From assembly GCA_964036045.1 (NCBI GenBank), contig OZ038391.1:42171621-42235620 (forward strand): 64,000 bases of DNA, written 5' to 3'. The DNA comes from Eutreptiella sp. 'Long Island Sound 2002' (taxonomy: Eukaryota; Euglenozoa; Euglenophyceae; Eutreptiales; Eutreptiaceae). A program made the translations under genes and the position numbers. Below the pieces are notes generated by a model that was given only the letters and a program-made list of their open reading frames with translations, was not told the origin of the DNA and did no database searches. Below, one piece after another: positions 7,599 through 13,128 of the stretch (positions are counted from its first letter, which is position 1; each line of letters begins with the position of its first letter).

Positions 7599-9233
7599 AC
7601 ATCCGTGTGGGGTAGTCGTGCGGAAGGGGGTGATCAGCCACCACTTTAGGGCATTGAAGAAAGTAGAGCGGCCGCATACCGCGCATTTTCGGAAGCGCCG
7701 CAGGTGTCGTTGGGCCCGTTTCATATTATTGGTCGCCCTGTGGTGCGCCCAAGCTTGCTGGGCCCTCTTGGAGGTAGGGTCGCGGTGCAACTCGTCAGCC
7801 AGCTGTTGTTCAACCACGTCTTGAACTGGCTGTGGGTGGGGGTGTGCGTGTACAAAGCTGGACGCTGCGGCAATGATGGCGTCCGCCCTGTCTAGTGGGT
7901 GCATGATGTGATCTTCGTGAGTGGAGTGCGCTTTGGACCATTGGGACATGTGGCGCGAAAACTTGCGGAATAACGAGGAGGGCCAGTGCGACACATTGCC
8001 AATGACCGGTGGCGGCGCTGGCCGCGGTCCCAATGGGTTCATTACTGTGACCCTGACTGCTTTGTGGTCACCCGCATGGGGAAAGTCGATGGTGTCCGCA
8101 GAGATGGGGGGGTGAATGTCCCATGCCGTGGGAGAAAACAGGACTGCGTCCAAGCGGCGGCCCCGGCAATGTGTGGAGAGATTTTGAGGGCCGGTGTTTG
8201 GCGCATGTGCCAAAATCGGGTCCAGCAAGGCTCCGGATTCGAGGAGCGGGTGCCAGTACCTAGTTGGTTGGGAAGGACGTCCCCACACATGGTCGTTGAA
8301 GTCGCCCATAAGGATGCCCAGGTCTGGCAATTGTGCAAACCATGCGTCCAACTTTTCACATTGGTCCCGCGAAAATGGTCCGTGGATGTTGGCGATGACG
8401 TACGGTGTGTGGCCAGGGAGAGCGAGCTTGATGGCACGGGCCTGGCTCCCCATGGAGGGCAGCTTGGAGACATATCTGGATATGGAATTGAGGACGAGGA
8501 ATTGCGTGTCCGGGTTCTCGTCCACATAGGTGATGGGGAGGTAGTCATCATCCATAGCAGCCGTCCAAGCTGCATGGTGAGATCCACTACGGAATCGAAA
8601 CTCCTGTAGGGCAATAACTGCGGGCTGTTCGGCGATAATCTCCGCCAGGAGGTGCCCCCAGCGGCGCCGTGATAGGAAGGGTCCTCCGACATTGAGTGTC
8701 AGGAAGGATAGGCCTGGCCGGGGTGGGGGGCTGGGCCCTGGATTGGGGTGGACGTCGTTGGACAGACGTATTAGGCGTTGTGCTAGATCCCATAGGATCA
8801 GGCCCGGCAATCGGGTGCGCGCGAGTGTTTGGTGTAAGGGTGAAGTGTGTAGCTGTGTGTAGGTGTCTTGCACGTGTGGCGGTGTCCACATGGGCAGTCC
8901 CACATGGGTGAGTGTCAGTAACAGGATGTACCAGCCCGGCAGGTTAGAGTAGTGCCACCTGTGCCGACGTTGTAGCTTGGGCCGCAAGCGTCGTGGCGTG
9001 CCGCTACGACGCCCAAGGTAGCACCATGATGGTAGTTGAACCACAGGCATCGGTGAACACATGGAAGTGACCCGGCTGCTCCATAGCAGCGCATACAAGA
9101 GGATGAGGTAAGGGAGGGACTTGATCCATCGTGGTCTCCAGAAGTCCCATGTCTGGCGATGGAGCCGTGCCACGCCCAGTGTATTGGCTGACTTATAATT
9201 GCATTGAGGCCGTTTCCTCCGGTGGCAGGGCAT
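7599..9233 (-). CDS. LINE ORF2 N-terminal part: hydrophobic leader, 2A-like motif and AP endonuclease
   Basis: The ATG at 9233 overlaps the end of ORF1 (stop at 9193) by 41 nt. Residues 38-50 and 101-110 are hydrophobic. DVHPNPGP at residues 160-167 matches the core of 2A ribosome-skipping peptides. The endonuclease follows, with Asn181 (TLNVGG), Glu211 (ALQEF), GDFN at 310-313, Asp362 (RRLDAVLF) and the Asp389-His390 pair. These are the active-site residues of exonuclease/endonuclease/phosphatase-fold LINE endonucleases, which nick the target DNA. The frame runs into the nested transposon at 7598 and, once that is removed, continues into the reverse transcriptase. The endonuclease domain itself looks undamaged. 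Confidence 0.88.
8733..8756 (-). other. 2A-like ribosome-skipping motif DVHPNPGP
   Basis: The translated motif is D-V-H-P-N-P-G-P with upstream LIRLSN. The 2A core is D-x-E/H-x-N-P-G-P with cleavage before the last proline. Such motifs are known near the start of ORF2 or before the endonuclease in several APE-type LINEs. Here it would separate a leader of about 166 residues from the endonuclease-RT protein. The Gly usually found just before the Asp is Asn, so efficiency is uncertain. Confidence 0.6.
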
Positions 9234-11020: not shown

Positions 11021-13128
11021 GCCACAGGGGAAGGAGCGAGCTGGGTGATATCGGCGCTGGTCATACCTTTCCCGCCGAATGGGTCGGCGATGTGGGAGAC
11101 CCAGCTCTCAACGGGAGCCTCACCAGTTGCGATGGCCTGTACGTAGTAGCAGAACATGGAGAACATAGCCAGACGGCCGTTCTTGATCTCCTTCACCTTC
11201 AGCCCAGTGACAGTGTCAGGGTCGTCACCCAAACCCAGATGGTCAGAGGCTTCACCAGGGTGGTGCAGGCGCATACCCTTGCACAGAGGACCACCGTGCA
11301 CACAGCAGGCCTCAACGGCAGCCATCAGGGCGAACTGGCAGGCCACGATAGCAGGGATGGGTTGGGTTTGCACCAGGTTGGAGCTGCCAAGGGAGTCCAG
11401 ACCGCCCTCAGGGAAGATCCGACCACCAGCCTTGAACCACACAGGCTGATCGACATGCATACCAGTGTACTTGGCCAACAACTCAGGGGTCAAGCAGCCC
11501 AAAGTGCCTAACATAGCCCAACGCGCGTGGATCATCTCGGCCTCACGGTATGCGGCGAAGGTGGTAGGGTCAGCGGCCAAACCGGCCGCGTCCCAACCGT
11601 AGTCACCAGGGTATTCTCCATTGAGGTAGTCAGGGGTGGAGGCACCAGAGAATGGGTCCAGCCAATTGTTGCGCTCAGGGCCATAGCAAGCATTGGTGGG
11701 GAACATGGCCACAGGCGAAGGAGCGACCTGGGTAATATTGGTGGTGGTCATACCTTTCTTGGCGAATGGGTCGGCGATGTGGGAGACCCAGCTCTCAACA
11801 GGACCCTCACTGGTCGCGATGGCCTGCACGTAGTAGCAGAACATGGAGAACATAGCCAAACGGCCGTTCTTGATCTCCTTCACCTTCAGTTCAGTGACAG
11901 TGTCAGGGTCGTCACCCAAACCCAGATGGTTAGAGGCTTCACCAGGGTGGTGCAGGTGCATACCCTTGCACAGAGGACCACCGTGCACACAGCAGGCCTC
12001 AACGGCAGCCATCAGGGCAAACTGGCAGGCCACGATAGCAGGGATGGGCTGGGTTTGCACCAGGTTGGAGCTGCCAAGGGAGTCGAGACCGCCCCCAGGG
12101 AAGATCCGAGCACCAGCCTTGAACCACACAGGCTGATCGACCTGCATACCAGTGTACTTGGCCAACAACTCAGGGGTCAAGCAGCCCAAAGTGCCTAACA
12201 TAGCCCAACGCGCGTGGATCATCTCGGCCTCACGGTATGCGGCGAAGGTGGTAGGGTCAGCGGCCAAACCGGCCGCGTCCCAACCGTAGTCACCAGGGTA
12301 TTCTCCATTGAGGTAGTCAGGGGTGTAGGCACCAGAGAATGGGTCCAGCCAATTGTTGCGCTCAGGGCCATAGCAGGCAGTGGTGGCGAACATGGCCACA
12401 GGCGAAGGAGCAGACTGGGTAATATTGGTGGTGGTCATACCTGTCTCGGTGAATGGGTCGGCGATGTGGGAGATCCAGCTCTCAACAGGATCCTCACCAG
12501 TCGCGATGGCCTGCGCGTAGTAGCAGAACATGGAGAACATAGCCAAACGGTCGTTCTTGATCTCCTTCACCTTCAGCTCAGTGACAGTGTCAGGGTCGTC
12601 AGCCTCATGGTATGCGGTGAAGGTGGTAGGGTCATCGGCCAAACCGGCGGCGTCCCAACCGTAGTCACCAGGGTACTGTCCAGTAAGGTAGTCAGGGGTG
12701 GAGGCATCCGAGAATGGGTCCAACCAATTATTGCGCTCAGGGCCATAGCAGGCAGTGGTGGGGAACATGGCCGCAGGGGAAGGAGCGAACTGGGTGATAT
12801 TGGCGTTGGTCATACCTGTCACGGCGAATGGGTCGGCGTACTCAGTGGAGTCCATCCCTGCCCCGTACACTCCGTTATATTGGGGCGCCGTGGGGAACAT
12901 GGCGTCCAACTCGGTAGCCTTGTGGTCATAGGCGCTGAACATGGCCACAGGGGATGGAGCGAATTGGGTGACGCAGGCGGAGGTCAACATCGACTGGGAC
13001 TGGGATTGGGCTGTCTCTGGGCTGAGACTGGATCGGGGGCCGGCTGAACCCGGACTTACTGCCTGTCCTTCTGGGGGCGTGGCTGCCGCGAAGGACTTAC
13101 CGCCGGGATGTCGGGTGACAGGCAACAT
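11021..13128 (-). CDS. Tandem LHCII chlorophyll a/b-binding units fused in frame to LINE ORF1
   Basis: An ATG at 13128 opens a frame that starts with about 46 Ser/Ala/Pro-rich residues (possible plastid transit peptide), then three antenna units. Units 2 and 3 (about 12405-11716 and 11716-11031) are full: [13 protein letters not shown], helix 1 [11 protein letters not shown] (the E-x-x-H-x-R ligand set), WFKAG, helix 2 with its Glu, helix 3 [12 protein letters not shown] (E-x-x-N-x-R), a Gln and SHIADPF with its His. Unit 1 (12790-12405) lacks helices 1 and 2. In helix 2 the Arg that normally follows the Glu is Cys in both full units. Units are joined by a repeated linker, [12 protein letters not shown]. 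No intron or stop is present. A fourth linker is cut after SPVA, where LINE ORF1 begins. It may be a retro-fusion rather than a working antenna gene. Confidence 0.8.
11031..12790 (-). repeat. Tandem repeat of LHCII coding units (about 687 bp)
   Basis: Two full units of about 685-689 bp are nearly identical at DNA level (compare 11240-11540 with 11925-12225). A third, nearer the start codon, is shortened to about 386 bp by loss of the segment encoding helices 1 and 2. Each unit edge carries the [12 protein letters not shown] linker. Euglena is known to encode LHC polyproteins cut at short linkers, so the arrangement could reflect a polyprotein source gene. Confidence 0.8.

Follow-up and report, generated by a model that had tools for sequence, protein, structure and literature searches.

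The question raised by this locus is how units of a light-harvesting complex (LHC) antenna protein came to share a reading frame with open reading frame 1 (ORF1) of a long interspersed nuclear element (LINE), and whether that join is a peculiarity of one place in the genome or the property of an element that moves. The locus lies in a 64,000-nt stretch of a 2.28-Gb euglenid-like assembly (C14:42171621–42235620), which we call the window. Sequence comparisons lead us to conclude that it very probably holds a damaged copy of a LINE family of a euglenid-like alga, in which ORF1 starts with host-derived LHCII polyprotein units and which would spread by the mechanism set out below.

All parts of the window element lie on the minus strand. 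A frame running from the ATG at 13128 to a TAG at 10276 stays open for 950 codons and is matched by PF00504 in four stretches (Pfam, E 4e-100). It begins with a leader common to other copies (12991–13128), which in the window is read in frame from the ATG, and passes into the LHCII polyprotein module (11021–12990), which starts at a linker. The LHC units have a period of 687 nt (229 aa) and are joined by linkers ending in APSPVAMF. An earlier note on this DNA counted three LHCII units; the repeats are there, the first being internally deleted (375-nt spacing) and only the following two full length. The last linker copy is interrupted at 11021/11020, the LHC/LINE junction, and is followed by ORF1-like sequence (9193–11020), at first basic and Ser/Lys-rich and then Gln/Tyr/Pro-rich. 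The central claim of the earlier note, a single frame joining LHC units to LINE ORF1, is borne out.

Further downstream the window copy is less intact than the earlier note supposed. ORF1 is fused in phase as it stated, and in the window the frame does not run to 9193, being closed by the TAG at 10276–10278 at a place where another copy, C25a, is open. Compared with C25a and C10a, ORF1 also lacks about 5 kb at 9273/9275. An ORF2 and a poly(A) tract do follow: the first part (7606–9233) has a 2A-like NDVHPNPGP at about 8759–8733 ahead of an apurinic/apyrimidinic (AP)-type endonuclease (PF03372), the reverse transcriptase (RT) part occupies 1711–4155 (PF00078), the C-terminal end (839–1894) stands in a different frame after a late frameshift near 1890, and the poly(A) lies at 600–618. 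ORF2 is split by a 3.3-kb transposon with terminal inverted repeats (~4278–7605), which is not part of the LINE and is absent from C7 and C10a. The 5′ end had been placed at the ATG; a spliced leader (SL) that went unnoticed lies further upstream, at 13156–13195, and marks the 5′ end of the element.

Is the join confined to the window? An 801-nt query across the junction (40 of 857 candidates scored) found it at at least 8 loci on seven contigs, window included, most of the 801 nt matching at 90–100%. The search for further LINE copies with LHC 5′ parts proposed in the earlier note was run with a LINE-only query (40 of 48 candidates scored, 45 matches), and at least 14 loci come to 10 nt or less from the break; in 11 of these, the same LHC side is attached over 26 nt or more. 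Upstream of ORF1 at C11:18057297 and C10:13962891 lies other or broken LHC sequence. When 5.8 billion proteins were searched with the ORF1 part (candidates of ~522–1662 aa), four gave E < 0.001 and all four contain PF00504. An endonuclease query matched at least 40 loci at 92–100%, again counting the window (40 of 158 candidates scored); besides the window, 11 of these were looked at and three lose the match within 1.5 kb upstream. The RT cluster, P0082, has 175 members. The LHC–LINE fusion is a mobile family and not a single odd locus. That a LINE can stably carry antenna domains in ORF1, which the earlier note raised, agrees with a junction recurring at eight or more loci; that the fusion arose at the window locus itself does not, since other copies have the same break.

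The recurrence also bears on whether the join is an artefact. Such repeats can be put together wrongly in an assembly, but a chimera would have to have been made at eight or more near full-length loci, and at one of them, C7, a perfect 25-bp duplication marks both ends; the C7 and L015 copies, moreover, recur with 100% identity as proteins on two ENA contigs (2.50 and 2.46 Mb), possibly built from the same data. An assembly chimera can practically be dismissed. A chance join of LHC and LINE is ruled out by the recurrent junction together with the target-site duplications.

These duplications define what was inserted. In C7, the 25-bp ACAATGGGAGTGCAGATTCACCAAT stands ahead of the leader and again past the poly(A). 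Duplications lying outside the SL and past the poly(A) were likewise found in C21 (26 bp), C9a (18–21 bp), C10b (22 bp) and C5 (16 bp), and two copies that are 5′-truncated inside the LHC part have them as well (C25b, 22 bp; C9b, 13 bp), making seven of the 12 copies with both ends in hand. Because five SL-bearing copies are flanked in this manner, SL, LHC and LINE were inserted as one piece, and we regard it as virtually certain that the LHC part is integral to the mobile unit. The earlier note had argued against a simple insertion of the LINE into an LHC gene, and had seen no LHC sequence past the poly(A). Both statements hold: duplications flank LHC and LINE jointly in the five SL-bearing and two truncated copies, and self-comparison of the window revealed no LHC sequence in the 600 nt available beyond the poly(A).

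The same evidence decides against a single LINE insertion into an LHC gene followed by segmental duplication of the locus. Such a history would account for the identical break among copies, and the 5′ flank sequence common to L015 and L016 is what it would produce. However, ten SL-bearing insertions differ in their upstream flank, and the distinct duplications outside SL and poly(A) refute it for C7, C21, C9a, C10b and C5; the SL at the 5′ end and the lack of LHC sequence past the window poly(A) also speak against it. We consider it very improbable.

What was the template for these insertions? The Euglena gracilis SL is given as ACTTTCTGAGTGTCTATTTTTTTTCG in a passage of PMC6242988, and the leader of the element matches it, the sequence compared being that of E. 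gracilis. In the window, a 24-nt leader (13172–13195), corresponding to 24 of the 26 nt in that passage, is followed by a repeat of its last 16 nt (13156–13171), the second starting right after an AG in the leader. This tandem relic was probably produced by renewed trans-splicing at that AG, and a full plus a partial SL is what would be expected if a relic leader had served as acceptor in a second round of trans-splicing and insertion. L034 has a leader, 19 nt and a second leader. The SL or a near variant starts 10 of the 11 fetched copies that reach the 5′ leader, and the upstream flanks all differ; in C7 a T-run takes the place of the first bases of the leader. Genome-wide, SL joined to the element 5′ sequence was found at 16 loci, eight of them exact, and a reversed control pattern gave none. 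Twelve of the 16 were examined. Four of the 16 (C7, C9a, C10b and C17) are LHC copies already identified, and six of the eight that were fetched run into LHC units.

The SL is the best evidence of an mRNA template. With the leader directly at the 5′ end and the flanks differing, the element copies appear to be copies of SL trans-spliced mRNA, and we hold with great confidence that the template was an mRNA carrying the SL. On this view the relics document directly that transposition used mature, trans-spliced RNA, and where they stand in tandem their number gives the rounds.

Comparison of copies gives the order of the complete element: SL, short leader, LHCII polyprotein units, ORF1, endonuclease, RT and poly(A). 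From leader to poly(A), C10a measures ~14.3 kb. The LHC–ORF1 frame of C25a is open for 1455 codons from stop to stop, and its next frame contains a 2A motif (GDVEANPGP), Cys-rich stretches and a ubiquitin-like stretch ending in RGRGGM, which the Pfam ubiquitin model matches at E 0.26 only; the 2A and ubiquitin roles are ones that we presume from other systems. In most other aligned copies the first ATG opens a 9-codon upstream ORF, and the main ORF probably starts in a linker-like sequence resembling the linker of the host LHC arrays. PF00078 was found in the window and in C7, as was the AP-type endonuclease PF03372; no RNase H model matched at E up to 5, and the nearest outside relative, P0085 (37% alike), has PF00075. 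The ends are an SL and a poly(A), not the terminal direct repeats of long terminal repeat (LTR) elements. RT, AP endonuclease, poly(A), variable target-site duplications and 5′ truncation all point to a non-LTR retrotransposon, that is, a LINE. A separate 5′-truncated LINE copy, L035 (C16:49931650–49934965), has an inverted SL-like string upstream and is perhaps a twin-primed insertion.

Two further questions concern the origin of the LHC part: (i) was it acquired once and (ii) was it acquired through RNA. For the first, at least 22 loci are listed with an ORF1 less than 90% like that of the window, not counting four copies of a second LINE body, B, that carry the LHC module of the window. All six diverged loci that were fetched (L065–L070, 80–84% alike) have LHC-derived sequence upstream. 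A midpoint-rooted tree of 44 LHC units places the LINE-borne sequences apart from one another. The window units group with L036 and with the LHC parts of a ubiquitin/zinc-knuckle element, P0038, P0041 and P0059 (support 96/86), outside the clade of host units (100/100); P0044 falls inside the host clade without a resolved place. P0039, P0043, L065, L068 and L069 form a cluster (100/98) that joins the host type of L001 (81/93), and L067 and L070 pair (88/99) and join P0011 (81/92). LINE-borne LHC sequence would thus occupy about three places among the LHC types and would derive from about three sources, some of the forks being modestly supported.

The window-type module is also attached to different LINE bodies. 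With body A the join lies at 11021; with body B three different joins occur (C7 and C10b, C2, and L030); and in L031 and L028 the module is attached to body D, a body defined by ORF1 likeness only and without an RT in view. Between the A copies and C7 (body B), synonymous divergence (dS) is 0.05–0.07 for LHC, 0.16–0.17 for RT and 0.22–0.26 for the endonuclease. Since the LHC value is the lower, the LHC module would be younger in the A/B combination than the LINE bodies, and the three body-B junctions together with the low LHC dS are compatible with a later switch from one LINE RNA to another. We believe that LHC was probably captured or exchanged more than once.

The second question is less firmly answered. 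The earlier note proposed template switching onto an LHC mRNA, which is a plausible origin of the fusion. It had also read the lack of introns in the LHC part as a sign of mRNA origin; this argument falls, since the host LHC arrays are themselves open over thousands of codons (4424 and 2494, for example). The competing idea is acquisition at the DNA level, in which a LINE landed beside LHC pseudogenes and was transcribed from an upstream start (5′ transduction). LHC-like stretches are very abundant, with 2610 PF00504 candidates in the genome and 17 LHC-only loci, and the SL–19 nt–SL arrangement of L034 suggests transcription from an upstream flank. Template switching is nevertheless the simpler account of the A/B module exchange, in which three different junctions lie close together in B. 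We therefore lean towards template switching over DNA recombination and rate 5′ transduction as unlikely, without its being far-fetched.

Two further kinds of protein contain LHC units. P0038, P0041 and P0059 have LHC-derived units followed by a ubiquitin-like part, in what looks like a retroelement-like polyprotein with units related to those of the window; Pfam finds ubiquitin in P0038 and P0059, and P0038 also has a CCHC zinc knuckle. In P0013, a Gag-like N-terminus (judged by eye) is joined to nearly unchanged host LHC units.

Does the LHC part still behave as an antenna protein? At the protein level the four host units compared agree to 99–100%, with dS as high as 0.7, and the window units differ from host units at ~24% of amino acids, indicating constraint far weaker than in the host. 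By inspection no plastid-targeting presequence is present, the ORF beginning at the linker or short leader; the host-like P0004 has a long hydrophobic presequence, again by inspection. With this presequence lacking, the LHC part is, as judged from its sequence, LHC-derived and not an antenna gene.

Whether the units do anything for the element is a closer matter. That they are a tolerated passenger is suggested by the weak constraint and by the older, diverged copies, in which the LHC parts are badly decayed. Against this, only 2 stops are observed in the LHC part over 13 other copies where random substitution predicts 23.9 (the copies are not independent), all 20 positions that we take to be chlorophyll ligands match the host unit in window units 2 and 3 (by inspection) at an overall identity of ~76%, and all six of the diverged copies that were fetched have LHC sequence upstream. 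A few ligand positions are lost in other copies. Splitting changes into private and shared, as a measure of selection on the LHC part, brought out no difference between the classes. On balance we somewhat favor a passenger without a role; usefulness to the element is possible and the less probable of the two.

Several observations weigh against the interpretation developed here. With regard to insertion as one unit, five of the 12 copies lack a duplication: the window (by script), C10a (by eye), L018, L019 and C2, of which L018 and L019 do not reach a poly(A) either and C2 has a G-run only; the C9b duplication stands 12 nt away from the element, and L015 and L016, with their common flank, are possibly not independent. 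With regard to the leader, C25a reaches it and has no SL; L072 has the first LHC linker only, within 0.9 kb; and L074 (C10:56708851–56709850) joins SL and a 133-nt LINE leader to unrelated sequence, with neither LHC nor LINE within 3.8 kb. In a seventh diverged locus, C20 (L037), the LHC side is cut to ~10 nt. The modest support at several forks of the LHC tree and the definition of body D by ORF1 alone belong here too, as does the sign of weak selection given by pN/pS (nonsynonymous to synonymous changes per site), 0.68 for private and 0.54 for shared LHC changes (Fisher p 0.38).

With these reservations, we propose that the element is transcribed and that its pre-mRNA is trans-spliced to the SL like a host mRNA. 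Translation would yield an LHC–ORF1 polyprotein, and 2A-like skips would occur further along. Reverse transcription of the mature, SL-capped and polyadenylated RNA would take place at a nicked target, so that each new full-length copy would carry a relic SL at its start, available as acceptor in the following round of trans-splicing. The most likely source of the LHC part is an antenna polyprotein mRNA, copied via template switching during reverse transcription, and by that route it has probably also been renewed and exchanged between LINE subfamilies.

A bolder possibility, which we think improbable, is a two-way exchange in which LINEs re-capture LHC as a working ORF1 module and LINE-borne cassettes feed back, helping to multiply and homogenise the euglenid LHC arrays. 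If so, the module could serve membrane anchoring, efficient trans-splicing or translation, or camouflage against silencing. The host arrays in this genome have linkers ending in SPVAMF, and 150 of the 2610 PF00504 candidates were scored. The junction query also matched at least 17 further loci at 85% over the LHC side only, and these were first taken as candidate further LINEs; the one fetched, L039 (C13:34197000–34202999), has no match to the LINE part and consists of a disrupted LHC array with TATG/TTG microsatellites at its ends. The E. gracilis LHCI-2 (P0040) is at best 68% alike among the matches listed from this genome, so that another photosynthetic euglenid is a likelier source than E. 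gracilis itself, although the SL agrees with that of E. gracilis.

The window has some other features as well. The transposon inside ORF2 (4278–7605) carries long inverted repeats; the duplication flanking it, CTACCCCACA at 4268–4277 and 7606–7615, is 10 bp long, a size that we take to be Mutator-like. From 35.7 to 51.8 kb extends a tandem array of ~1.17-kb units with AGC-rich microsatellite starts; Rfam at gathering thresholds gave no match in the window, this array included. At 23687–24298 (minus strand) an open frame has an adenylate/guanylate cyclase domain (PF00211).

The LINE family described here carries pieces of the main photosynthetic antenna family of its host, in frame, in several subfamilies and with clear ends. 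This makes testable the building of new ORF1 proteins by template switching, the maintenance of a captured host domain by an element and the shaping of large euglenid LHC arrays by retrotransposons. To our knowledge, LINEs are seldom known to keep host protein-coding sequence, and no paper on LHC-carrying LINEs was found by title or abstract in the open-licence literature, subscription papers lying outside that search. Known separately are host fragments at retroelement 5′ ends and relic SLs on retrogenes; apparently new, in that it did not appear in our searches, is a LINE family with in-frame antenna units, several subfamilies and relic leaders on its own copies.

Four systems invite comparison. 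In SVA_F1/MAST2 and other primate 5′-acquiring retroelements, a host transcript supplies a 5′ part that spreads along with the element. SVA_F1/MAST2 is non-autonomous and carries an exon fragment, whereas here a LINE with its own endonuclease and RT carries an in-frame, multi-unit host protein in several subfamilies. Kinetoplastid LINEs such as L1Tc/Ingi have an AP endonuclease, an RT and a 2A-like NPGP motif before the endonuclease; the window LINE is like them in all three and differs in its LHC part. The LHCs of E. gracilis are translated as polyprotein precursors, according to a passage of PMC12965295, and the genome paper of that species puts LINEs at 1.49% (PMC11252322). The Euglena LHCI/LHCII polyprotein genes resemble the present module in having repeated LHC units in one frame and a linker ending in SPVAMF; here, in contrast, the units are fused to a LINE ORF1, lack a P0004-like presequence and have diverged from host units as described above. 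In dinoflagellates, relic SLs mark retrogenes copied from mature mRNA and repeated relics mark repeated rounds, as stated in part of PMC12014239. Those relics sit on host genes, whereas in this euglenid-like genome they sit on the retrotransposon itself.

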